Virus record (IMG/VR): IMGVR_UViG_3300035703_002824
Coordinates: 1-24,961 of that record
Strand: one strand, 5' to 3'
Origin: a virus
Length of the DNA stretch: 24,961 nucleotides
Below the pieces are notes generated by a model. The model worked only from the letters and a program-made list of their open reading frames with translations, did not search any database and was not told where the DNA came from. Made by a program: the position numbers and the translations under genes. Below, in pieces: positions 1 to 11,900 of the stretch. Position 1 is the first letter of the stretch. Every line of letters starts with the position of its first letter.

Positions 1-1629
1 CAAGCGCTCATCAACCGACTGACTGGCATCTTGCAGCCCGAGCGGCGCAACGCCTATCAGGATGTGCAGGTTCTGCCGAAGCTCGATGAGCTCAAGCTCA
101 CTGGGCCAAGAACGCTGATCGTTATCAAGCCAGACGGCAAAGTCCCGCCGAGCGAACTGCAGAACTTCTTTGACTACCAGCAGGAGAAAAACAACCTGCT
201 TGTACTCACCGGCCAGGACAGTCATATGGCTGATGCGGTCGAGGACCGACTGCGGGAGCTCTACGCGATCGAGCAGATTCACAAACGGCTGAAGGCTGGT
301 GACACGCTCTTTGAGGAAGCGCGCGACCGTATGGAAGAGGCCGAAGATCGCTTCGAGAAAGCGCTCTCGGCGGCCTACAACCGTGTGTACTTCCCCAGCG
401 TTGATGACATTGATGGGCGTGAGTTTCTCGCACCGGTCACCATCGACAACGGATTGAAGCTGGGCAAAGGAGATCAATCGGCTGAGGCTCAAATCGAATC
501 CCTGCTCGCCAGCCCGCGCGCCAACTACAAACTCGCAGCCGATCTCGCCGAGAACTTCAATGAATACTTTGCGATGGCTGAGGAATACCTCTGGCCATCA
601 GGCAAGGACAACCGGCGCACCCCTTGGAAGGACGTCGTCAGCCGTGCCAAGAGCAATCCCGTTTGGCCCTGGATGCCCGGCAGCGGCGGTATGGACACCC
701 TCAAGACGGAGGCACTGAAGCAGGGTCGCTGGCGATTGGGTGAGGATGGGTATGTCGAAAAGGGGCCGTTCCCCAAAGACAAGACCACTGTCAACGTGTC
801 AGTGGTCGGTAGCCATCCCGACACCGGCGAGACCATTTTGAGTCTCACTCCTCGGCACGCAGGCGAAAGCCCAATGGTCGTTTATGCAACCAGGCCAGAG
901 GAACTGGTTACCGGGAAAGCGGTGGACGATCTCGATAGCTTCACGACCGGAGAAGGCACCCTCTACTTCCTGGCCAAAGATCAGACCGGCCAGTACGAAA
1001 CTGGTGCGCCTGTTCGGTGGACTGCCGACCTCAAGATTCGCCACCAGGTTGATCCAGCCGCTGACAAGCGGCGCATTACCCTGGCGAGCACGCCCAAGGC
1101 AGATCTGTTCTACACGCTGGATGGCTCCAACCCCAAGGACGGCACGCCCTACGAGGGTCCGTTCGAGATCGGGCCTCAAGCGGTACGCCTCTTGGTTTAT
1201 GCGCGCGCTGGTGAAGCCAACAAGACAGCGGACTTTCAGGTTCCTGCGAGTGGCGACAAGACGGTTCAGATCGTTGATACCAAGCCAGCCAAGCTGCAAT
1301 CCAAGCGAGTCGCGCTCGATACCACTGATCGCGTCTATGGCGTCATCAACCGTTTCCGCGATCAGCCGGGCACTCGGTTCAAAGGTGTTCGCATTGAGAT
1401 TGGCGAGGGTGAGAACACTGTGACCATTCGCTTTCAAGAGCGAGAAGTAACCGCAGCAATGATTGAGGGTGTCGTGAACAGCCTTCGTCAGGTGTTGAAC
1501 GAAGACCAAGCACCGGTCGCCATCACCATTGCCGATGGCATCCAGTTCGACACCGGATTTGCTGCCAAAGAGTTCGCCAAGCTGGTGGGTATTGAGCTCA
1601 AGCCCGGCGACGTTATTCAGGAGAACTAA
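1..1629 (+). CDS. DUF499 family ATPase-type protein, C-terminal part (5' end outside window)
   Basis: The reading frame is open from base 1, so the gene starts upstream; about 542 residues are visible and the stop is TAA at 1627-1629. The visible part resembles the C-terminal half of DUF499 proteins, annotated as AAA-type ATPases of about 1000 residues; the nucleotide-binding part would be outside the window. There is a charged, probably coiled-coil stretch (EEARDRMEEAEDRFEKA). Near nucleotides 1070-1250 lies a chitobiase/beta-hexosaminidase C-terminal-like domain (FYTLDGSNP, then a YARAGE strand), which often ends these proteins. It heads a tight operon with DUF3780, DUF1156 methylase and PLD-helicase genes, so it is probably the ATPase of that defence complex. 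The family call rests on recalled sequence pattern and strong context; the ATPase role is inferred from the family, because no Walker motif is in view. Confidence 0.8.
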   Translation, partial: QALINRLTGILQPERRNAYQDVQVLPKLDELKLTGPRTLIVIKPDGKVPPSELQNFFDYQQEKNNLLVLTGQDSHMADAVEDRLRELYAIEQIHKRLKAGDTLFEEARDRMEEAEDRFEKALSAAYNRVYFPSVDDIDGREFLAPVTIDNGLKLGKGDQSAEAQIESLLASPRANYKLAADLAENFNEYFAMAEEYLWPSGKDNRRTPWKDVVSRAKSNPVWPWMPGSGGMDTLKTEALKQGRWRLGEDGYVEKGPFPKDKTTVNVSVVGSHPDTGETILSLTPRHAGESPMVVYATRPEELVTGKAVDDLDSFTTGEGTLYFLAKDQTGQYETGAPVRWTADLKIRHQVDPAADKRRITLASTPKADLFYTLDGSNPKDGTPYEGPFEIGPQAVRLLVYARAGEANKTADFQVPASGDKTVQIVDTKPAKLQSKRVALDTTDRVYGVINRFRDQPGTRFKGVRIEIGEGENTVTIRFQEREVTAAMIEGVVNSLRQVLNEDQAPVAITIADGIQFDTGFAAKEFAKLVGIELKPGDVIQEN

Positions 1630-1633
1630 AGAG

Positions 1634-2266
1634 ATGATTCAATCCAAGGCGGCAAGCAGCGCGGCAAAAAGCAAAGCGGTCGGGCAGAAAAGTCTGCACC
1701 CTACGCTGGGCTTTGGCGTGCCTGCCACCTCGGACCCGCATCACTTCAAGGTCATCATTCCCCGCAGCAACACCGGGCGCGTGCAGATCAGTGAGTACCT
1801 CGGCATGCAAGCCACCGCCGACGAGCACGCGGTTATAGACCGCGTATTGCTGGATCGGCCACGCTGGACGGCCATCCGTTCAGAAGTCCAGCGCGCGTTC
1901 AATGCCCGGCTCAATGGGCACGGGCTCAAGCCCAGCGCATGGAAAGTCGGCGATAACCCAGTGGACAGGCTGTTGGGCAAGGAGCTCTGTGTACTCGCGT
2001 GGGCCGTGGAACACATGGAGATTGAGAAAGTGCCGGTCGCCGTGAGGAATTGGCTGGCGCTGCGCCCCGAAGAGCGTTGGTGGCTCTTTGGTATGACGGC
2101 CATGAGCACGGGCGGCATCAACGACAGTGACAAAGGTTGGCGGTTGGCGTTGCGCCACGCGTTGGGCGACATCGCTCAAAGCGAACTGCTGCAACCCAAG
2201 GCGCGGCGTCAGCGCGCGGGCGACGACAACGACCGCCCAACTTTGGACCTATTTGGGAACGAATGA
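1634..2266 (+). CDS. DUF3780 family protein
   Basis: This is a 210-residue protein of unknown biochemical role. I chose ATG 1634 because AGGAGA (1619-1624) lies 9 bases upstream and the previous gene stops 4 bases before; a longer frame would run into that gene. Family-like features are the N-terminal GFGVP...SDPHHF segment, the central KVGDNPVDRLLGKEL segment and the C-terminal RPEERWWLFGMT segment. No catalytic motif, signal peptide or membrane segment is seen. The family is known almost only from loci with DUF499, DUF1156 and PLD-helicase genes, as here, so it is likely a small structural or specificity subunit of that system. The family is assigned from memory and the role is inferred from context. 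Confidence 0.8.
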   Translation: MIQSKAASSAAKSKAVGQKSLHPTLGFGVPATSDPHHFKVIIPRSNTGRVQISEYLGMQATADEHAVIDRVLLDRPRWTAIRSEVQRAFNARLNGHGLKPSAWKVGDNPVDRLLGKELCVLAWAVEHMEIEKVPVAVRNWLALRPEERWWLFGMTAMSTGGINDSDKGWRLALRHALGDIAQSELLQPKARRQRAGDDNDRPTLDLFGNE

Positions 2267-2269
2267 AGA

Positions 2270-5233
2270 ATGAATGAAGCGGTAAGAACAACAACTCCTC
2301 TAGTGCCGCTGGCGCTCAAGGACGCACCGGCCCTGATTGAATCGGTGTTCCCGGCGCAAAAAGTCTCGTTCGAGGCGCAAGCCGAACGCAAAGCGGTTGC
2401 TGCCCAGACGCTGACTGGGTTGGGTTCCTATTGGAAAGGGCGTAAGCCTCTGATCCTGGTGCGCGCCATCGTGCTTGGCAGCCTGCTGCCCGCGACTGAC
2501 GACCCTGAACAAGACCTCGCGGTGTTCGAGAAGTTGATGGCCTTCGATGAGGAAAGCCTTGCAAGGCGTGCGCTCGCTGAGAGCGCGCTGTCCGCGACGC
2601 GCTTGCAGGAACTGATTCCCATCAGCGACCCCGAGCGCTATTTTTCCGGACGTGGCTGGCGGCGCGACATCACCGACGATGACAAGTTGGTGCTATATCG
2701 CAGAGCATTGGCGACCTTTGGTAGCTACGAGGAAAAGGCCGGTCTGGGCAAACGCCCCGAAGAAGTGGATCAGGAATGGCTTTACGCTCCGGCGTGGGAG
2801 GCCGTTAACCAGCATTACGCGCATTTAGGCATCAACGCCAACAACATTGCCGAACTGGTTGAACAACTGGGGATGCTGCGCTATGGCCATCGGCCGAGGG
2901 CCGGTGACACCTTCAGTGGCGGAGGTTCCATTCCCTTCGAGGCAGCACGAATTGGCTGTGACGCCTACGCCTCCGACTTGAACCCGATTGCCTGCATGCT
3001 GACTTGGGGCGCACTCAATGTCATCGGAGCCTCGCCCGAGCGCCGCGCAGAGATTGATCGAGACCAACAGGCTGTGTTTGATGTGATCGATCAGGAGATC
3101 ACCAAGCTGGGCATTGAGCATGACGAGAAAGGCAACCGCGCCAAGGCCTATCTGTACTGCCTGGAAACACGTTGTCCCGAAACGGGATGGATGATTCCGC
3201 TCTCGCCGAGTTGGGTGATCTCGCCGAAACAAGGCGCGGTGGCGAAACTGATTCCTGACGAGAAGAACAAGCGTTTCGACATCGAAGTCGTCACGGGCGC
3301 ATCTGCAGCGCAGATCGCGGCTGCGGATAAGGGCACCGTACAAGATGGGGACATGGTCTACACCCTTAACGGTCGTACCTACCGTTCGCCGATCAAGACC
3401 TTGCGCGGCGATTTCCGTGACGCGGATGGCAATACCGGCAATCGCCTGCGTCGATGGGAGAAAGATGAGTTTCATCCACGGCCCGATGACATATTTCAGG
3501 AGCGCCTCTACGCCATCCAGTGGATTACTAAAAAGTCCATCAATGCTTCGCGGCAGATCACCTACTTCTCCACGGTGACAGAGGCCGACCTCGCGCGTGA
3601 GCGCCAGGTGGAAAAGCTGGTCTCTGAGAGTCTTGCTCAATGGCAGGCACAGGGGCTTGCGCCGGACATGGCTGTAGAGCCTGGTGCTGAAACAACTCGC
3701 CTCGGTCGTGAACGTGGGTGGACGCATTGGCACCACCTTTTTAATGCGCGACAACTCCTGCTTCAAGCGATCTCAATCAAAACATGGAGAAGTTCAGGCT
3801 CCGCCCCATTGGGCTGGATTAATCTGGCTAAGGCGGCCGATTTCAACTCAAGGCTTTGTCGCTGGGCCACATCGCAAGGCGGCGGACTGGGTGGACCGAA
3901 AGGCGTATTCTCGAATCAGGCACTAAATACCTTCTTCAATTACGCAACGCGCTCGTGGGCGGGCTTCGGGGCCTCGTCATTCAAGATGGCCGAGGCGTCA
4001 TTGCCTGCTGTGGAGCGCTCCATCGTGTCTGCGCCTGCGGAGCAACCTACGCAGAATTGTGAACTCTGGATCACCGATCCGCCCTACGCCGATGCAGTGA
4101 ACTACCACGAGATCACCGAGTTCTTCATCGCTTGGCTGCGCAAGAACCCGCCTGAGCCCTTCGACGAGTGGGTGTGGGATTCGCGCCGTGCGCTGGCCAT
4201 CAAGGGATCGGGTGAGGACTTCCGGCGCGGAATGGTCGCCGCCTACAAGGCGATGGCGGATCACATGCCAGACAACGGCATGCAGTGCGTGATGTTCACC
4301 CACCAGGACACGGGTGTTTGGTCGGACATGGTCGGCATCTTCTGGGCTGCTGGCTTGCAGGTCGTGGCAGCCTGGTACATCGCCACCGAAACGACGTCCG
4401 AGTTGAAGAAAGGCGGCTACGTACAGGGCACCGTGATTCTGATGCTGAAGAAGCGTGCTGCAGGTGATCGTGCAGGCTTCAAGCAACGCATCCTTCCTGC
4501 CGTGCGCAGCGAAGTTCAGCGTCAGATTGAAACGATGATGCACCTCAACGACGAGGTGAAGAGCAAACACGGCGAGCCCGTTTTCAACGACTCCGACTTG
4601 CAAATGGCAGGTTACGCCGCAGCGCTGAAGGTGCTGACGGCCTATACGCAAATTGGTGGCGAGGACGTGACTGCTTTCGCTCTGCGCCCACGCGTGCGCG
4701 GCGAGGTCACAGTGGTCGATGAAATCGTTCAGCAGGCGGCAGAAGCGGCCAACAGTCTGCTGGTGCCCGAAGGTCTGGCCGCCGACACCTGGGCCAAGCT
4801 GACGGGTATCGAGCGCTTCATGCTGCGCATGATGGACATGGAAACCACCGGCGCGGCCAAGCTCGACAACTATCAGAACTTTGCCAAGGCCTTCCGTGTT
4901 GAGGACTACAGCCGGGTGATGGGCAGCATGGCGGCCAATCAAGCTCGACTGAAGCGCGTGCCCGAGTTTGCCTCCCGCGACTTGACCGACAGTACCGAGC
5001 TCGGTGCGACCCGGCTTGGGCGCTTGATCATTGGCGTGCAACAGGTGTTGGCGGAAACCGAACCGCAGGCCATCGTCAGCCAATTGCAGGCCGAAATGGC
5101 CGACTTCCTCGAAGTGCGCTCACTGCTGGTGGATTTGTTGGCCTTTATTGAACGCAAAGCCCCGGAAGAGCAAGTTCGCGCCGGTGCTGAAGTGCTTGGC
5201 GCACGCCTCAAGAACCTGCGGTTTGGGGCCTAA
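2270..5233 (+). CDS. DUF1156/COG1743 adenine-specific DNA methyltransferase
   Basis: This 987-residue protein has an N-terminal DUF1156 region (around residues 15-120) followed by an amino-methyltransferase. The SAM-binding motif I is DTFSGGGS at residues 213-220, and the catalytic motif IV is DPPY near residue 603. The roughly 390 residues between them are long for a simple methylase. That spacer has C297 and C302 in a CLETRCPETGW segment, which looks like a reduced version of the Zn ribbon of COG1743; I see no clear second cysteine pair. It would methylate adenine N6 in host DNA, marking self. It starts 3 bases after the DUF3780 stop, and 4 bases separate it from the helicase gene. The methylase call is firm; target site and substrate strand are unknown. 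Confidence 0.9.
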   Translation: MNEAVRTTTPLVPLALKDAPALIESVFPAQKVSFEAQAERKAVAAQTLTGLGSYWKGRKPLILVRAIVLGSLLPATDDPEQDLAVFEKLMAFDEESLARRALAESALSATRLQELIPISDPERYFSGRGWRRDITDDDKLVLYRRALATFGSYEEKAGLGKRPEEVDQEWLYAPAWEAVNQHYAHLGINANNIAELVEQLGMLRYGHRPRAGDTFSGGGSIPFEAARIGCDAYASDLNPIACMLTWGALNVIGASPERRAEIDRDQQAVFDVIDQEITKLGIEHDEKGNRAKAYLYCLETRCPETGWMIPLSPSWVISPKQGAVAKLIPDEKNKRFDIEVVTGASAAQIAAADKGTVQDGDMVYTLNGRTYRSPIKTLRGDFRDADGNTGNRLRRWEKDEFHPRPDDIFQERLYAIQWITKKSINASRQITYFSTVTEADLARERQVEKLVSESLAQWQAQGLAPDMAVEPGAETTRLGRERGWTHWHHLFNARQLLLQAISIKTWRSSGSAPLGWINLAKAADFNSRLCRWATSQGGGLGGPKGVFSNQALNTFFNYATRSWAGFGASSFKMAEASLPAVERSIVSAPAEQPTQNCELWITDPPYADAVNYHEITEFFIAWLRKNPPEPFDEWVWDSRRALAIKGSGEDFRRGMVAAYKAMADHMPDNGMQCVMFTHQDTGVWSDMVGIFWAAGLQVVAAWYIATETTSELKKGGYVQGTVILMLKKRAAGDRAGFKQRILPAVRSEVQRQIETMMHLNDEVKSKHGEPVFNDSDLQMAGYAAALKVLTAYTQIGGEDVTAFALRPRVRGEVTVVDEIVQQAAEAANSLLVPEGLAADTWAKLTGIERFMLRMMDMETTGAAKLDNYQNFAKAFRVEDYSRVMGSMAANQARLKRVPEFASRDLTDSTELGATRLGRLIIGVQQVLAETEPQAIVSQLQAEMADFLEVRSLLVDLLAFIERKAPEEQVRAGAEVLGARLKNLRFGA

Positions 5234-5237
5234 GTGA

Positions 5238-7976
5238 ATGTCGATCCGGCGCTTCTCCTCCCGGACCCATCGGCTCGACGCGAGCTTCCTGCTGCAGCAT
5301 CTGCAGGGGGCTCGCAGCTATAAGCGTATCGCTGGCTACTTCACAAGCTCGCTATTCGAGGTCGCCAACGAACTGCTGGAAACGATTCCCGAGGTCAAGA
5401 TCGTCTGCAACGTGGACATCCACCCCGATGATCTGAAGGTAGCGCAGCTACGCGAAGCCAAAATGATGGGGCGTTGGAACGAGAAGGCCATCGAAGCGGA
5501 GGCCTTGCTCAATCGAGATCGTTACCGTCGCCTAGACGCCTTCTTGCAGAAGCATGGGCAGGCTGTGCGCGTGGCTCCAGACAACATCTGTGGCTTCGTG
5601 CATGGCAAGGCAGGCGTCATTGAGTTGGCCGATGGCCGCAAGTTGGGTTTCATCGGCTCGATGAATGAGACTCGCAGCGGTTGGCAGCGGCACTATGAGA
5701 TCTTGTGGGAAGACGAGTCCCCCGAAGGGGTCGCCTGGATTGAGGAAGAGTTCGAGTTCTTGTGGAATGCAGCTCGACCACTGCCGCAGGTGGTTATCCG
5801 GGAAGTCCATCGGCGTGGCTACCGCCGCGAGGTGTTGTTCGACGAGATCGACGAAGAGGAGGATCTCGCACCAGCGGCACTGATCGAATCGCCTCTCTAC
5901 CGCGAGGGGTTGTCGCTACAGCCTTGGCAGCAGGGGTTTATTACCGAGTGCCTGCGCCACCACCAGCAACACAAAGTGGTCAGGCTGCTGTTGGCAGACG
6001 AGGTGGGGCTCGGAAAGACGCTGTCACTCGGTACCGCAGCGCTGACACTTTGTTTGTTGGCGGATCGAGAGAATCAAGCGCGCAAGCCAGTGGTGATCTT
6101 TGCTCCGGCCACCCTGTGTGAGCAATGGCAGACAGAGATGATCGATAAGCTGGCCATCCCCTGCGCGCGCTGGGACACCTTGCGCAAGGTTTGGCTGGAC
6201 ACTGATGAACGCGTAATCTCTCCTGCAGGCCGCGAGCAGATAGCCAAGTGTCCCTTGCGGATTGGGATTGTCTCCACTGGCCTGATGATGCGGGACTCCC
6301 TGGAGAAACAGCACCTCCTGGGCCTGCGATTCGGTTTGGTCATCCTTGATGAAGCCCACAAGGCACGCGGTCGCCAAGGCTTCGGCAAGGATGCAGGCTC
6401 CCCGAATGAGCTGCTTGCGTTCATGCGAGAGATTGCGGCGCGTTCAGATCACGTTCTTCTGGGCACTGCTACGCCGGTTCAGACCCAACCAGAGGATTTA
6501 TGGGACTTGATCGGCATTCTCCACCAAGGCAAGGGGAACTTTGTCCTCGGCAATGACTTTGCGCCGTGGCATCGGCCTCGTGAGGTGCTGCCTATCCTTT
6601 CTGGGGAACAAGAGGTCACGGATATTGGGTTTGCGTGGCAACTGCTGAGATCGCCTTTACCCCTGGTTGACTCCACCCAAGAACCGCGAGCGAGAAAGCT
6701 GTTCAGCGCTATTCGTCAGGACTTGGGGCTCGTCAACGGGGAATGGCAAACCACCAAGACAGCTACAGATCTGACGGAGGATACCCGGGAGATCCTGGAA
6801 GACGAGTTGGAGCGCCGAATTTCGGGTGCCACCCTATTCCAGCGTGAGAATCCACTGGTGCGGCACGTTGTACTGCGCAAACGCGTCAGCCTTGAAGAGG
6901 CGGGGCTGTTGACCAAGGTCGGTGTCGACGTTCATCCAGATCGCCAGCTTGTCGGCGACCCACGTTGGTTCGATGCACTATTTGAGGCCAAGGCGCTGCG
7001 AACCAATGAGAACTTCCGTGAAGCCTATCGAGAGGCGCGCTTGTTTGGTAAGGCGCTTGGTAAGCGCGGCAAGGGCGGCGGGTTCATGAAAAATCTCATG
7101 GAGCAACGCATTTGTTCCAGCATTCAGGCGGGACTCAGTACCGCCAGGATGCTTCTGGAAGGCCGGACGATCCATCAAGAGGAAGACGAGCAAGAAGCTG
7201 ATCTAAAGGTTGAAAGCGGCGAAGAACGCGAGGTTTTGCTACGTTTGATTAGTCGGCTAGAGCACATTGAGGAAGACCCAAAACTCAATGCCGTTATCCA
7301 TTACCTGGAAAGAGAAAAGTGGCGCGAGCTCGGAGTTATTATCTTCAGTCAGTACTACGACACGGCAAAGTGGGTCGCCGACGAATTAGCCTTGCGGTAC
7401 CCGGATGAAGCAATTGGGCTGTACGCTGGCGCCGGCCGCAGTCGCTTGTATCAACGCGGTGATTGCGTAACGTGCGAGCGGGAAACGCTCAAAAAAATGG
7501 TGGCTGAACACGAGATCCGCATCATGGTTGCTACAGATGCGGCCTGCGAAGGTCTCAACCTACAAACGCTAGGCACCTTGATCAATATCGATTTGCCGTG
7601 GAATCCGACTCGCCTCGAACAGAGGATCGGACGCATCAAGCGCTTCGGCCAGAAGCGCGAAACCGTGGATATGCTCAACCTAGTGAATGAGCAAACTGTG
7701 GACGAGAAGATCTACGAACGTCTGTCGGAACGGATGCGCAATCGCTACGACTTGTTTGGATCAGTTCCAGACACCATCAAGGACGAATGGATCGAGGACA
7801 TCGAGACCCTCGGGGAAAAGATGGACGAGTTCATCAATGCGCAGAAAGAGGCGACGGGATTTGACCTGCGCTACACGGGCACGATGGAGCCACCGGAGAA
7901 AGATTGGCGGGATTGTTCGGAGGTGCTGTCACGAAGAGACTTCGCAGTACTAATGACCACGGCTTGGACGGGATAA
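5238..7976 (+). CDS. PLD-like domain plus SNF2/DEAD-type helicase
   Basis: The product has 912 residues. The N-terminal part (about 1-180) is phospholipase D-like, with one HxK half-motif (H122-G-K124) followed by GSMN at 140-143. This is the arrangement of PLD-family nucleases that work as dimers. The superfamily 2 motor follows: Walker A GLGKT (K260), DEAH at 371-374, motif III GTATP, and the C-terminal RecA lobe with ATDAACEGLNLQ and the arginine motif RIGRIKRFGQ (around residue 796). It is probably an ATP-driven translocase or helicase carrying a nuclease domain, and so the DNA-recognition or DNA-attack subunit. ATG 5238 is 4 bases after the methylase stop; an in-phase GTG at 5234 is not available because it is in another frame. 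The domain calls are firm; nuclease activity is inferred. Confidence 0.9.
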   Translation: MSIRRFSSRTHRLDASFLLQHLQGARSYKRIAGYFTSSLFEVANELLETIPEVKIVCNVDIHPDDLKVAQLREAKMMGRWNEKAIEAEALLNRDRYRRLDAFLQKHGQAVRVAPDNICGFVHGKAGVIELADGRKLGFIGSMNETRSGWQRHYEILWEDESPEGVAWIEEEFEFLWNAARPLPQVVIREVHRRGYRREVLFDEIDEEEDLAPAALIESPLYREGLSLQPWQQGFITECLRHHQQHKVVRLLLADEVGLGKTLSLGTAALTLCLLADRENQARKPVVIFAPATLCEQWQTEMIDKLAIPCARWDTLRKVWLDTDERVISPAGREQIAKCPLRIGIVSTGLMMRDSLEKQHLLGLRFGLVILDEAHKARGRQGFGKDAGSPNELLAFMREIAARSDHVLLGTATPVQTQPEDLWDLIGILHQGKGNFVLGNDFAPWHRPREVLPILSGEQEVTDIGFAWQLLRSPLPLVDSTQEPRARKLFSAIRQDLGLVNGEWQTTKTATDLTEDTREILEDELERRISGATLFQRENPLVRHVVLRKRVSLEEAGLLTKVGVDVHPDRQLVGDPRWFDALFEAKALRTNENFREAYREARLFGKALGKRGKGGGFMKNLMEQRICSSIQAGLSTARMLLEGRTIHQEEDEQEADLKVESGEEREVLLRLISRLEHIEEDPKLNAVIHYLEREKWRELGVIIFSQYYDTAKWVADELALRYPDEAIGLYAGAGRSRLYQRGDCVTCERETLKKMVAEHEIRIMVATDAACEGLNLQTLGTLINIDLPWNPTRLEQRIGRIKRFGQKRETVDMLNLVNEQTVDEKIYERLSERMRNRYDLFGSVPDTIKDEWIEDIETLGEKMDEFINAQKEATGFDLRYTGTMEPPEKDWRDCSEVLSRRDFAVLMTTAWTG

Positions 7977-7978
7977 CG

Positions 7979-9280
7979 ATGCTGGACGAGTACTCGATAG
8001 AACAGCGCGCGAGTCAAATCTTCGATGCGCGCAGTAGGGAATACTTCTCCGAGGTATTGAGCTGCTACACGGCGGGCAACTACCGGTCGGCTGTCGTGAT
8101 GCTGTGGTCGGTGGTAGTCTGTGACCTGCTTTTCAAGCTCCAGCATCTCGTTGATCTCTACGGTGACGACAAAGCGAAGGCTATTCTGGCCGAGATCGGC
8201 AAGCTGCAGCAGGCCAACGAGCGGTCCTCGGAATGGGAATCGAAGATGGTGGAGTTGGTGGCTGAGCAGACGCAGTTGCTGGACATCGCAGAGCGGGAGA
8301 ACCTACTGCACCTGCAACGCCAGCGCCATCTTGCTGCGCACCCAGTGGTCAACGCCAATTTCCAGCTACATCGTCCGAACCGTGACACGGCTCGTGCCCT
8401 GATTCGCAACGCGCTCGATGGACTGCTCACGAAGGCACCGATCTTGTCTAAGCAGATCGTGGGTGATCTGGTCGCGGATCTTGAGCAGGCATCGGGAATT
8501 CTGATCGACGACAAGAAGCTGAAGGCGTACTTGGAAAGCAAGTATTTCTCGCGTTTCAATCCGGAGGTCGAGAAGGCCGTCTTCAAGGCATTGTGGAAGT
8601 TTGTCTTCCGGTTGACCGACGAGAGGTGCGAGAAGAACCGTACCATCAACTACAGCGCATTGACTCTGCTTTATGGCCGCAACCCAGCGCAGTTTCAGAC
8701 GCAGGTCGAGGCCGACAGAGACTATTTCAGCACGATTGCAAAAGGTGGCCCACCCCTTGTGTGCCTGATTCACTTCCTGTCGCGCTCGGCGGGCATCTAC
8801 CGGTCGCTGGCGGATCACGCCAAAACGGCGATCCAGCACACAGCCGAGCAGGAAACATCGGCCCGTTGCTTGGCTTGGTTTACCGCTCCAACCATGCAGG
8901 AGCACGCAGATCGGCTGTGTGCGTGGATCGTCGGTGATGATTACCCGCAGATCGGGCGTGAGACGTGGGATGCTCTACGTGAGATCTCGGATTCGCAAGA
9001 ATGGGATAAATCTGTAGTGCGGCTCGCCTGCGCGTACTACGTGGCAAGCTCTAACTACGATGGCGCGGACAAGCGCTTCAACGAGGCAATTCGGCCAATG
9101 CTACCGGCGTTCGACATGGATGACTGCGTTGCACTGATTCGAGGCATTGAAACGAATGGTCAGACGTGGGAGCGGCGCGCAGCGTACACAGACCATCGTG
9201 AGCTTCGCGCCCGTGCGTTGGAGATCGATCCCGCGTTCAATCCAGCGCAGTATGCGGTCTTTAATCGTCATTTGGATTGA
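7979..9280 (+). CDS. Hypothetical protein with HEPN-like N-terminal domain
   Basis: The protein has 433 residues and no family name that I recognise. ATG 7979 was chosen because it follows the helicase stop (TAA 7974-7976) by 2 bases; an upstream in-frame start at 7904 would lie inside the helicase gene. The N-terminal 150 residues look all-helical: a helix pair around EVLSCYTAGNYRSAVVML, then RQRHLAAHP with R116-H117-x3-H121. This matches the R-polar-x3-H signature of HEPN ribonucleases and of DUF4145-like proteins. The remaining ~280 residues are soluble and helix-rich with no motif I can name. Its place between helicase and hrgA suggests an effector of the defence operon. The HEPN call is an inference from motif and helical pattern; an inactive scaffold helical domain is the alternative. 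Confidence 0.6.
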   Translation: MLDEYSIEQRASQIFDARSREYFSEVLSCYTAGNYRSAVVMLWSVVVCDLLFKLQHLVDLYGDDKAKAILAEIGKLQQANERSSEWESKMVELVAEQTQLLDIAERENLLHLQRQRHLAAHPVVNANFQLHRPNRDTARALIRNALDGLLTKAPILSKQIVGDLVADLEQASGILIDDKKLKAYLESKYFSRFNPEVEKAVFKALWKFVFRLTDERCEKNRTINYSALTLLYGRNPAQFQTQVEADRDYFSTIAKGGPPLVCLIHFLSRSAGIYRSLADHAKTAIQHTAEQETSARCLAWFTAPTMQEHADRLCAWIVGDDYPQIGRETWDALREISDSQEWDKSVVRLACAYYVASSNYDGADKRFNEAIRPMLPAFDMDDCVALIRGIETNGQTWERRAAYTDHRELRARALEIDPAFNPAQYAVFNRHLD

Positions 9281-9312
9281 CAACGGTGCGGGAGCTCCTC
9301 AAGAGGCATGGC

Positions 9313-10254
9313 ATGGCATTGAATTTACGACAGGTGGTGATTGGCTACCTCCGAGATCACGCGGAGCATAAATTTACTGCACGGCAGATTGCTGAGTGGA
9401 TTTTCGAGACCTTCCCTGAAGAGTGTCAGGCGAAGAAAGCCTGCAGCCAATACGTAAGCACCGATGCGGAGCTGTTGCAACAATTGGTTGCGGAGATCAG
9501 CTCCCAGCGCCCGCGCTTGCAGAAGAAGCACCCAGAGCTCAAGACGACTGAGGGCCGCCCACGGAAGTACTACTACTCCGAAAAGTCAGACATTGCTGAG
9601 GTGGCGGCGGCAGAGAGCACAATCGTCGTGCCCTCGGTTGACGTGAACAATACCAAGTTCGGCGAGCACGCGATGTACCCTCTGCTGTCGCTGTATCTGT
9701 GGGAAGAATTCGGGGTGTACTCGAAACGCATAGATGAGAAACGTTCATCGAACAAGCGCGGCCCGAACGGCAACCGTTGGCTCTACCCGGATCTGGTGGG
9801 CATGGAGGACTTGGGCGCGGACTGGCACCAGGAGGTGCGGGACTGCGTGAATCAGTATTCCGACAAGCGCACCAAGTTGTGGTCGTTCGAGGTCAAGTTG
9901 CTGATCAACCGGTCGAATGTCCGAGAGTGCTTCTTCCAGTCCGTCTCGAACTCCTCGTGGTCCAACTTTGGCTACCTGGTGGCCGCCGAGATCGAGGGGC
10001 AGGACACATTGAAGGAGCTGCGAATGTTGTTCGCGGCTCACGGCATCGGCCTGATCAAGCTGGATGCCGACAATCCGGCGGAAAGTCAGGTGCTGATTCC
10101 AGCCCGAGAAAGGGATGAAATCGATTGGGATATGGCAAACAGACTAGCCACGGAAAACCGCGATTTTCTCGACTACGTGAAGTTGGTGAAGCAGTTCTAC
10201 CAGACCGGCGAAGCGCGGCTGGCCGACTGGGACGTGCCAAAAGAGGCCGAGTAG
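9313..10254 (+). CDS. hrgA: HrgA/COG2958-like protein, putative PD-(D/E)xK nuclease
   Basis: This is a 313-residue protein from ATG 9313, which has AAGAGG (9301-9306) 6 bases upstream and gives the usual family start (M-x-LN). A TTG at 9277 overlapping the previous TGA would add 12 residues. Residues 1-90 look like a winged-helix or HARE-type domain (KFTARQIAEWIFETFPEEC). The C-terminal half has P159-D160, then E193-V-K195 in SFEVK, then Q209, preceded by E118 in a helix. This is the layout of a PD-(D/E)xK restriction-type nuclease. HrgA takes its name from a Helicobacter pylori gene that replaces a restriction enzyme gene beside a methylase. Here it ends an operon with a methylase and a helicase, so it may be the cleaving subunit. 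Family membership is likely; nuclease activity is inferred. Confidence 0.75.
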   Translation: MALNLRQVVIGYLRDHAEHKFTARQIAEWIFETFPEECQAKKACSQYVSTDAELLQQLVAEISSQRPRLQKKHPELKTTEGRPRKYYYSEKSDIAEVAAAESTIVVPSVDVNNTKFGEHAMYPLLSLYLWEEFGVYSKRIDEKRSSNKRGPNGNRWLYPDLVGMEDLGADWHQEVRDCVNQYSDKRTKLWSFEVKLLINRSNVRECFFQSVSNSSWSNFGYLVAAEIEGQDTLKELRMLFAAHGIGLIKLDADNPAESQVLIPARERDEIDWDMANRLATENRDFLDYVKLVKQFYQTGEARLADWDVPKEAE

Positions 10255-10262
10255 GCGCGAGG

Positions 10263-10553
10263 CTATTCGAGAGACCCAGTCACGATGAGTTGCTGTTCGG
10301 CTCTGCTGAACTCTCCTTGCCAGAATTCTCGGCCGTCAATGCTCAGACGTTTTAGCATCAGCTGAAAGCCCTCACAGTTGCGCTCTTTCGCAGTGGCAAA
10401 GTCACTCGTGTCGAATCGGGCCTCGCGAGCCAGCGTGGTTGCGAGCGACTTCATGGCGTGTTCGAACAGATCGAGTAGGTTGGATTGTTCGTCTTCATCG
10501 ATACCGTGAGAGGCAGCGTCCTCGATCACGGCCTTCTTGTACTTGGTGGTCAT
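10263..10553 (-). CDS. Small hypothetical protein at the prophage/defence junction
   Basis: The protein has 96 residues, is acidic to neutral, and has no signal peptide or membrane segment; I do not recognise a family. ATG 10553 is preferred over ATG 10559 because the GGAGAA upstream lies 8 bases from the former and only 2 from the latter. It is mostly helical by composition (LLDLFEHAMKSLATTLAREA). It converges with hrgA, with 8 bases between the two stop codons and no clear bidirectional terminator. It lies 76 bases downstream of the lysozyme gene on the same strand. It could be the last prophage gene (a moron) or a flanking host gene. Function unknown. Confidence 0.6.
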   Translation of the reverse strand: MTTKYKKAVIEDAASHGIDEDEQSNLLDLFEHAMKSLATTLAREARFDTSDFATAKERNCEGFQLMLKRLSIDGREFWQGEFSRAEQQLIVTGSLE

Positions 10554-10629
10554 CGGCATTTCTCCGTTGCGGGAATGACATGAACGCGCTGTGCGGCGGT
10601 AAAGCCAAGCTCTTTTGCGCGCTTTCGGC

Positions 10630-11097
10630 TCAAGCGTTGCGAAGTAGCAAGGCGACCTCAGCTTCCCGCCGCGTGACGAGTCCTGGCAGCACTTTCCCGC
10701 CGCCGTAGACCCAACGGCGCAGCTCTGTCGCGGCTGCGGGCCAGTCCCTCTGATTGATCCGTCGCCTCAGGGTCGATGTCTGAAGCCGCCCCGCGCCGAG
10801 GTTGAAGGTGAAGTCGACGATGGCCGCGAGCCGACCCTCGGACTCGGCGGACAGCACCGGGCAGTAACGCAGCGTGGCGGCGAGGGCCGTGCGCAGGTCC
10901 TGACGCAAGTAGGCCTCGCCCTCTTCCTCGCTGACCGGTGCATGGTCTGGCTTGCATAAACGCCCGTAGCCGATCGTCCAGTAGCCGGCTGGGCAGATAT
11001 AGGGGTGGGCGCGACGCAGTGGATCTGATTTGGGAACCCTGTGGAAGCCCTCAAATCGCTTCGCCAGTGCTATGGCGGCTTGTGGAATCTGACTCAT
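10630..11097 (-). CDS. Phage lysozyme (GH24 endolysin)
   Basis: This 155-residue enzyme hydrolyses the glycan strand of peptidoglycan at the end of the lytic cycle. It shows the GH24 (T4/P22-type) pattern: catalytic E16 in RFEGF, then C35 and T41 in ICPAGYWTIGYG, and the FNLGAG segment at 98-103 typical of the family. The usual active-site Asp position is Cys, as in many P2/P21-group lysozymes. There is no N-terminal hydrophobic signal-anchor, so release should depend on the holin encoded just upstream. The ATG overlaps the holin stop as ATGA. A longer in-frame reading to 11577 covers the holin gene in another frame and was rejected. Confidence 0.93.
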   Translation of the reverse strand: MSQIPQAAIALAKRFEGFHRVPKSDPLRRAHPYICPAGYWTIGYGRLCKPDHAPVSEEEGEAYLRQDLRTALAATLRYCPVLSAESEGRLAAIVDFTFNLGAGRLQTSTLRRRINQRDWPAAATELRRWVYGGGKVLPGLVTRREAEVALLLRNA

Positions 11098-11570
11098 GGC
11101 CGCACCCGGTCGAAGACGCGCCCGATGAACCAGAAGTTCAGTACGCCAGCCCACAGCGCTTGGTCGGCTTCCGTCCAGGCGTGCAGGATGGCTGTGCCCC
11201 AGCCAGCGCCTGCATTCAAAGCAGCCGCGAATGCTGCGGTCTTGGCTGCGCAGTACAAGGCCATGAACCAGTAGGTGATGACGGGGCGCACACTGATCGA
11301 CAGGGCATCTGCCCAGCGGACGCCAGTTTTCTCGCCCTGTGTGCGGACGGCCTCGCGCAGCGTCTCGATCGCGCCCACGTTCCACGCAGCTTCGGCACCC
11401 GCGCCGATTTCCTCCATGCGCTGCGCCCCGCGCAGCTTCTCGAACTCCAGCGCCTTGTCCTGCATCGCCAGTTCGTGGCCACGTTCGCCCTTGCGGTCGA
11501 GCCACTTGAGGAGTTCGGGCGCCAGGCGGAAGGCGCCGCCTAGCAGGCCGCCGAGAAGGGTCTCGATCAT
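11094..11570 (-). CDS. Holin of the 3TM family
   Basis: This 158-residue membrane protein should permeabilise the inner membrane to release the lysozyme. It has an N-terminal hydrophobic/amphipathic segment (LLGGLLGGAFRLAPELLKWL), a charged middle (residues 25-85), and hydrophobic segments near 93-120 and 123-150, with the SVRPVITYWF signature of the GTA/3TM holin family. ATG 11570 was chosen because it overlaps the upstream stop as ATGA and because the residues before it in the longer frame are low-complexity read-through of the previous gene. It also overlaps lysozyme by ATGA, so the cassette is translationally coupled. A family call is likely; timing function is not shown. Confidence 0.82.
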   Translation of the reverse strand: MIETLLGGLLGGAFRLAPELLKWLDRKGERGHELAMQDKALEFEKLRGAQRMEEIGAGAEAAWNVGAIETLREAVRTQGEKTGVRWADALSISVRPVITYWFMALYCAAKTAAFAAALNAGAGWGTAILHAWTEADQALWAGVLNFWFIGRVFDRVRP

Positions 11571-11857
11571 TGGCCACCTCCCATCAATTTGAGCTTGATA
11601 GCGGTTCCGACCAATAGCGCAGCCAGGATTCCGGTTGTGACGACTTTGATAGTCGTTTGCCAGGCGGTGCGACGTGCGTCGCGCCACGCTTCCAGAAGGT
11701 CGCGCAATTCCCTGATATCACGTGCAGCGTGGCCGTTTTCTAGCCCAAGATGGGCGAGGCAACGCTCAGCGCCACGTTGAGCTGCAACATCGAGCAGATT
11801 TTCGAAATCATTTTGGGGCAGGCTAATCCACCCCTCTTGGCTTTTGATTTCAACCAT
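11567..11857 (-). CDS. DUF6127-like small membrane protein of the lysis cassette
   Basis: The product has 96 residues with a soluble N-terminal helical part and one membrane segment near residues 71-91 (TTGILAALLVGTAIKLKL). ATG 11857 is favoured: GGAG sits 6-7 bases upstream, whereas the alternative TTG at 11869 contains that Shine-Dalgarno sequence. The gene overlaps the holin start by ATGA, so it is the first gene of a three-gene lysis unit. It resembles DUF6127 proteins found next to holins; it may be a second holin, an antiholin or a pinholin-like partner. Which of these is not shown by the sequence. Confidence 0.7.
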   Translation of the reverse strand: MVEIKSQEGWISLPQNDFENLLDVAAQRGAERCLAHLGLENGHAARDIRELRDLLEAWRDARRTAWQTTIKVVTTGILAALLVGTAIKLKLMGGGQ

Positions 11858-11900
11858 AGTTGTCTCCAAAGGTGAAATAAAACTGGTGCGGTAAGGTCGG

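Follow-up and report, generated by a model that had tools for sequence, protein, structure and literature searches.

A HrgA-like protein with a predicted PD-(D/E)XK nuclease domain at the fixed border of a prophage defence hotspot

Introduction

Since 2002, HrgA has figured in the literature chiefly as a Helicobacter pylori marker gene, without an agreed activity. As cited in two reports, the HrgA of Helicobacter and Campylobacter is encoded by a gene found in place of hpyIIIR and is a homologue of cj1602 (PMC4687069, PMC4615327). In the literature searched, no publication linking HrgA by name to a nuclease fold was found; Aravind and Iyer 2012 may name HrgA. Proteins that join a HARE-HTH to an REase domain have been described either as auxiliary effectors or as readers of modification (PMC12839542, PMC10853773), and nucleases fused to a winged helix have been shown to read 6mA (PMC11037411).

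The hrgA copy described here lies in a stretch of 24,961 nucleotides, referred to as the window (IMG/VR virus record IMGVR_UViG_3300035703_002824, positions 1 to 24,961). As this is a virus record, the window is most likely a prophage. It opens with a Type-2 BR system, known as a locus of DUF499, DUF3780, DUF1156 methylase and HKD/SNF2 helicase genes (PMC12839542).

Organization of the Locus

The features bearing on hrgA, with the basis of each assignment in brackets, are the following.

1-1629, plus strand: DUF499 ATPase, C-terminal half, cut by the window edge (PDLC02192, profile positions 496-1022)
1634-2266, plus strand: DUF3780 gene of the Type-2 BR system, open reading frame listed from 1529 (PF12635, NF042961)
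2270-5233, plus strand: DUF1156 N6-adenine DNA methyltransferase of the Type-2 BR system (PDLC02189, NF042963)
5238-7976, plus strand: HKD/PLD-SNF2 helicase of the Type-2 BR system (PDLC02193, NF042964 above cut-off)
7979-9280, plus strand: PD-T7-3-like defence gene, open reading frame listed from 7904, likely start 7979 (PADLOC PDLC04108, E 7e-165)
9313-10254, plus strand: hrgA-like gene, 313 aa, winged helix and predicted PD-(D/E)XK nuclease domain (frame, conservation, predicted fold)
9313-9588, plus strand: winged helix, residues 1-92 (AlphaFold secondary structure, pLDDT 81-91; fold comparison)
9589-9663, plus strand: linker, residues 93-117 (residues 101-114 of low confidence, pLDDT <50)
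9664-10212, plus strand: predicted PD-(D/E)XK nuclease domain, residues 118-300 (conservation, predicted fold)
9664-9666, 9787-9792, 9889-9891, 9895-9897 and 9937-9939, plus strand: codons of the site residues E118, P159-D160, E193, K195 and Q209, respectively
10263-10559, minus strand: 98-aa gene convergent to hrgA, no family match (co-occurrence with prophage hrgA)
10630-11136, minus strand: phage lysozyme/endolysin, constant lysis module beside the hotspot (PHROG endolysin, PF00959)
11094-11869, minus strand: two more genes of the constant block, phrog_6637 and DUF6127/phrog_10540 (PHROG, Pfam)

Beyond the lysis block, a contractile-tail cluster that includes sheath and tape measure genes follows on the minus strand. 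The hrgA frame is intact and open throughout 9313-10254, and the same ATG (9313) is the start in close homologues. The PD-T7-3-like gene belongs to the swappable cassette: it was not found in the other hrgA loci examined. It is inserted between the BR helicase and hrgA, the place taken by a GmrSD gene in another locus (L086).

Conservation of the Catalytic-Type Residues

The homologue set comprised 145 unique full-length sequences drawn from genomes, viral contigs and plasmids, and clustering at 70% identity gave 40 representatives from several phyla, including distant members in Helicobacter, Leptospira and Persicobacter with about 25-35% identity. E118, P159, D160, E193, K195 and Q209 are invariant in 40/40 representatives, as are N213, S214 and W216, and the conserved positions are held by 144-145 of the 145 unique sequences. 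Tyrosine replaces D160 in one of the 145, the remaining departures being fragments or disrupted copies. Selection on the gene is purifying, with a median dN/dS of 0.04 in the nuclease domain versus 0.11 in the winged helix. In 14.5% of 20,000 shuffled copies of HrgA the pattern PD-x(8,60)-[DE]xK-x(8,25)-Q arises by chance, so that the motif alone is little proof of a nuclease and other support is needed.

The family was found in 17 of 398 sampled genomes of the phylum Pseudomonadota, and a Bacteroidota relative in 34 of 296 sampled genomes. A search of 50,697 deposited phage records gave no HrgA matches, and hence no named phage relatives. One Helicobacter plasmid (L065, NZ_AP028023.1) carries three hrgA copies, with matches at 4350, 20914 and 45585, and the hrgA of Thermomonas beijingensis is split across two contig ends (L054, L058). 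This split, and the ending of several viral contigs within hrgA, are as would be expected if the gene were repeated in those genomes.

The Predicted Nuclease Fold

AlphaFold modelled the whole protein from 44 aligned sequences with a mean pLDDT of 84.6, and the C-domain alone with a pLDDT of 89.1 and a pTM of 0.87. In C-domain numbering, the predicted elements are helix 7-22, strands 24-28, 50-55 and 76-87, helix 92-103 and strand 108-116, which match the alpha-beta-beta-beta-alpha-beta core of the PD-(D/E)XK superfamily, with one extra helix between strands 2 and 3. In the model, E118 opens the first core helix, D160 directly precedes strand 161-166, E193 and K195 lie within strand 187-198, and Q209 within helix 203-214; the D, (D/E) and K characteristic of the superfamily are present at strands 2 and 3 as D160, E193 and K195.

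Searched with Foldseek, the C-domain gave 3dnx (SPO1766) as its best match (E 6e-4), followed by AF1548, MspJI and AspBHI. In structure alignment the top Z scores were those of PaqCI (9.9 over 141 residues), the MmcB-like 3dnx (9.2), EndoMS/NucS (8.2) and AF1548 (8.0), and the lower rows contained Cdn1, EcoT38I, Can2, Card1, AspBHI, MspJI, FokI, HindIII, Hjc and NucC. The matches are nearly all PD-(D/E)XK proteins, the class to which PaqCI, 3dnx, EndoMS and the others are known to belong. By itself a Z score of 8-10 is modest; it is the uniformity of the match list, together with the placement of the invariant residues, that makes firm the assignment of the modelled C-domain to the PD-(D/E)XK fold with an intact site. 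The alignment to EndoMS begins at C-domain residue 6 (HrgA 117), opposite EndoMS residue 131. Glu132 and Glu179 of EndoMS lie at Mg2+ sites (PMC6829318), and the start of the alignment is consistent with E118 being the counterpart of Glu132.

Sequence comparison with Pfam, NCBIfam, PADLOC, PHROGs and the PDB, made with the single sequence and with profiles, gave no nuclease relative. The best PDB profile row, a homing endonuclease (E 0.026), was rejected as its alignment covers none of D160, E193 and K195. Since the nuclease domain has no Pfam match, the HrgA family is invisible to standard defence annotation.

The preliminary description of this gene had named the product HrgA-like and had read E118, P159-D160, E193-x-K195 and Q209 as the layout of a PD-(D/E)xK nuclease behind a winged helix. 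These residues stand exactly where it had placed them, and the fold is borne out by the AlphaFold core, the structural matches and the invariant site. A loss of D160, E193 or K195 in most homologues, named there as a refuting outcome, did not appear, as every representative keeps all three. The profile search that it proposed gave a divided answer: sequence profiles returned no nuclease match, whereas comparison of structures did. The name agrees with the annotation 'HrgA protein' of homologous plasmid genes in Helicobacter, Vibrio, Shewanella and Alteromonas (tblastn), and the alignment with the proteins so annotated contains invariant columns common to both. The winged-helix N-terminus also holds, residues 1-93 being matched to winged helices of many kinds in the fold comparison.

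The Winged-Helix Head

In the window copy, Pfam found no HARE-HTH (PF05066) in the N-terminus, and hhalign of this head against HARE-type N-termini gave a probability of 0.7% and an E of 0.079, with no alignment. In the HARE-type homologues, which are distant HrgAs, Pfam recognizes HARE-HTH in the N-terminus of 7/7. The family thus combines one nuclease domain with two kinds of winged-helix head, or with one kind that has diverged beyond detection. As no HARE-HTH is detectable in the window head, the proposed modification-sensing role of HARE is not simply transferable to it.

The 5' part of the gene was the more divergent one in 175 of 399 close pairs, versus 17. Between the window and two near relatives (L075, L001), third-position differences amount to 0.43-0.53 in codons 1-60 and to no more than 0.20 thereafter, a step near codon 60 that is consistent with a crossover inside hrgA. 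The idea that the winged helix is matched to, and travels with, the upstream system was rejected (Mantel test of codons 1-60 with HsdR, r 0.07, p 0.175).

A Fixed Gene beside Exchanged Defence Systems

In prophage-type loci the downstream side of hrgA is constant and the upstream side variable, and hrgA is the fixed border gene of a prophage hotspot, located between the lysis genes and the defence slot. The upstream neighbour lies on the same strand as hrgA, as if in one transcription unit, and mostly 5-70 bp away. According to family labels made on representatives, these neighbours include type I and type III R-M, McrBC, BrxL, GmrSD and the BR system, as well as CBASS cyclase with 2TM or patatin genes, SprT/YgjP, a caspase-like gene and a protein kinase. 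A 'PglZ' label for the BrxL neighbour in one locus (L007) was not confirmed by Pfam. Many of the loci are cut by viral contig ends.

Among relatives with 55-91% identity, the neighbouring system is swapped wholesale. The nearest relative, L075, aligns with window positions 9303-11730 at 86% and has type III R-M upstream; its homology with the window, like that of L001, which also carries type III R-M, begins at 9303, 10 bp before hrgA. Across loci the 250 bp upstream of hrgA are at the level of shuffled sequence (0.61 vs 0.60), while in the same loci hrgA is 78-90% identical and the downstream 300 bp are about 66-87% identical. HrgA protein distances correlate with those of the 98-aa downstream gene (Mantel r 0.57) and not with those of HsdR (r 0.09, p 0.2); nucleotide distances of the nuclease region show a weak correlation with HsdR (r 0.225, p 0.008).

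Beta- and gammaproteobacteria account for most occurrences of the hotspot. The idea that every such hotspot has hrgA was rejected, as only 9 of 43 wider loci with room have the gene. A search for a conserved left border gave nothing beyond a regulator of about 314 aa, identified as WYL-like by reading of its sequence, which in 6 of 10 contigs stands directly upstream of the defence cassette (L199, L200, L201, L202, L204, L207). In L063 (9980-10300) a second Type-2 BR system adjoins the same lysis block, with only about the last 53 residues of HrgA kept; relative to the window, about 2.1 kb are missing, comprising the PD-T7-3-like gene and the 5' part of hrgA. In a further set (L026, L031, L033), two Xanthomonas loci have hrgA directly after mnmE (90-148 bp), and in an Advenella locus mnmE lies about 8 kb upstream of hrgA, with type I R-M genes between. 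These mnmE-linked loci suggest that there is a second hotspot, at whose far end hrgA lies.

The convergent 98-aa gene, which matches nothing in PHROG or Pfam, is the near-exclusive companion of hrgA in these prophages. It occurs in 14/14 hotspot loci with hrgA and in 3/65 without it. When the 98-aa gene itself was searched for, with a narrow alignment in the viral scan, hrgA adjoined it in 47 of 50 loci that had room, the gap usually being 8-30 bp. In two exceptional loci, L390 and L403, hrgA is missing, and the immediate neighbour of the 98-aa gene is HsdR (the type I R gene) or a CBASS-like cyclase. These are apparent natural losses of hrgA with the neighbours kept, which suggests that the neighbours can do without hrgA. 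In loci other than these prophages hrgA is found without the 98-aa gene (25 of 101 loci), so that the 98-aa protein is not an obligate antidote. Shared descent within a linked block could explain the pairing as well as a common function.

Possible Roles of HrgA

The reading towards which we lean is that HrgA is a stand-alone, partner-independent accessory DNase, probably type IV-like. The winged helix (residues 1-92) would bind DNA, and the flexible linker would join it to a metal-dependent PD-(D/E)XK domain, in which D160, E193 and K195 would perform the cutting, helped by E118 and Q209. The winged helix may recognize some property of incoming DNA, be it a modification, a sequence or a structure, that is absent from the host, whereupon the nuclease would cut, giving a presumed defence against DNA that enters later. 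Such an enzyme would need a rule for sparing its own genome, and recognition of a feature absent from the host is the simplest. As a fixed border gene beside exchanged defence systems, hrgA is independent of each of these systems. Many 6mA methylase systems are found together with HrgA, and a C5-methylase is encoded in 10 of 23 hrgA genomes and absent from 13, so that there is no clear avoidance; a general dependence on 6mA or 5mC is therefore unlikely, and for 5mC it was rejected on this count.

It is less likely, although a serious alternative, that HrgA is an auxiliary or backup effector of the upstream DNA-modifying system and needs the products or cues of that system, being switched on when the system is blocked or trimming the DNA ends that it makes. 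The gene usually follows an R-M, BREX, BR or CBASS gene on the same strand at no more than 70 bp, and HARE-HTH and REase fusions are reported as auxiliary effectors of BREX/BR (PMC12839542) and beside Dnd genes (PMC10853773). HrgA nevertheless does not co-diverge with its neighbour, which can belong to any class (CBASS and McrBC included), with no signal common to all. Some hrgA copies have no such system, and BR methylase and helicase genes were found in the same hotspot without hrgA (L311, L325).

HrgA might instead serve the phage itself, for example by cutting host DNA or processing phage DNA late in growth. We consider this improbable. The lysis module is the constant neighbour of hrgA, and HrgA tracks a phage-side gene; against this, hrgA is on the strand opposite to the lysis genes and beside defence genes, most phages with the same lysis block lack it, and homologues occur on plasmids and in many Bacteroidota genomes.

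More doubtful still is the possibility that HrgA causes defence cassettes to be exchanged, in the way that a homing endonuclease spreads itself, by cutting the recipient hotspot and promoting the recombination that imports a new system. If true, this would explain why hrgA was first noticed as replacing a restriction gene, why the borders of exchange coincide with its 5' end or lie just within it, and why the small partner gene stays with it.

The preliminary description had taken linkage to a methylase as a sign that this copy is a real nuclease, and that argument fails. The neighbour of hrgA is swapped among relatives, so that no stable linkage to one methylase exists, and the nuclease domain differs between the window copy, beside BR, and those of L075 and L001, beside type III R-M, by a dN of only 0.002 against a dS of 0.27-0.29. 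That HrgA and the DUF1156 methylase form a cognate, type II-like pair, with HrgA as the restriction enzyme that cuts unmethylated DNA, is accordingly very improbable. The defence genes are adjacent in the window, and in H. pylori hrgA stands where the GATC restriction gene hpyIIIR would be (as cited in PMC4687069). The methylase is, however, replaced in almost all relatives, HrgA does not track HsdR, and the BR system has a nuclease of its own in the HKD helicase (PMC12839542). BR also occurs without hrgA, and hrgA mostly without BR, so that the gene is not a regular part of the Type-2 BR locus. On plasmids of Helicobacter, Megaera, Persicobacter and Leptospira no annotated DNA methylase lies within 6-10 kb of hrgA, which argues against an obligate cognate methylase.

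It is equally hard to credit that HrgA is a regulator that binds DNA and whose nuclease fold is dead, since all catalytic positions are invariant in the representatives and the nuclease domain is under tighter constraint than the winged helix, even though the latter resembles many transcription factors.

The predicted structure and the invariant PD-(D/E)XK site make the HrgA family directly testable as a nuclease. The hotspot, for its part, is a natural experiment in which one nuclease is retained while the adjoining defence system is exchanged.

Comparison with Known Systems

The Helicobacter HrgA, compared here through a plasmid copy with 26% overall identity, is homologous to the window protein in the nuclease domain and has all the same catalytic residues. 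The window HrgA differs from it in having another winged helix and in its place in a prophage defence hotspot, where it replaces no one particular restriction gene. The HARE-HTH and PD-(D/E)XK endonucleases of BREX/BR and Dnd neighbourhoods follow the same plan, a DNA-binding winged HTH with an REase, but the window N-terminus gives no HARE-HTH match. Fusion endonucleases of the DpnI type (PMC11037411) likewise have their nuclease domain and winged helix within a single stand-alone chain. Their domain order, PD-(D/E)XK followed by wH, is the opposite of that in HrgA, and they need 6mA, whereas HrgA is found together with many 6mA methylases. PaqCI, the MmcB-like SPO1766 (3dnx) and EndoMS/NucS are the best structural matches to the nuclease domain, yet they share only 9-20% identity with it, have other partner domains and show no sequence-profile link. 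The hotspots of P2-like phages and satellites (PMC9122126) resemble the hrgA hotspot in being prophage loci with exchangeable defence systems. The hrgA hotspot differs from them in that it lies next to a lysis block (endolysin, DUF6127, phrog_6637) and that its border can hold a fixed gene for a predicted nuclease.
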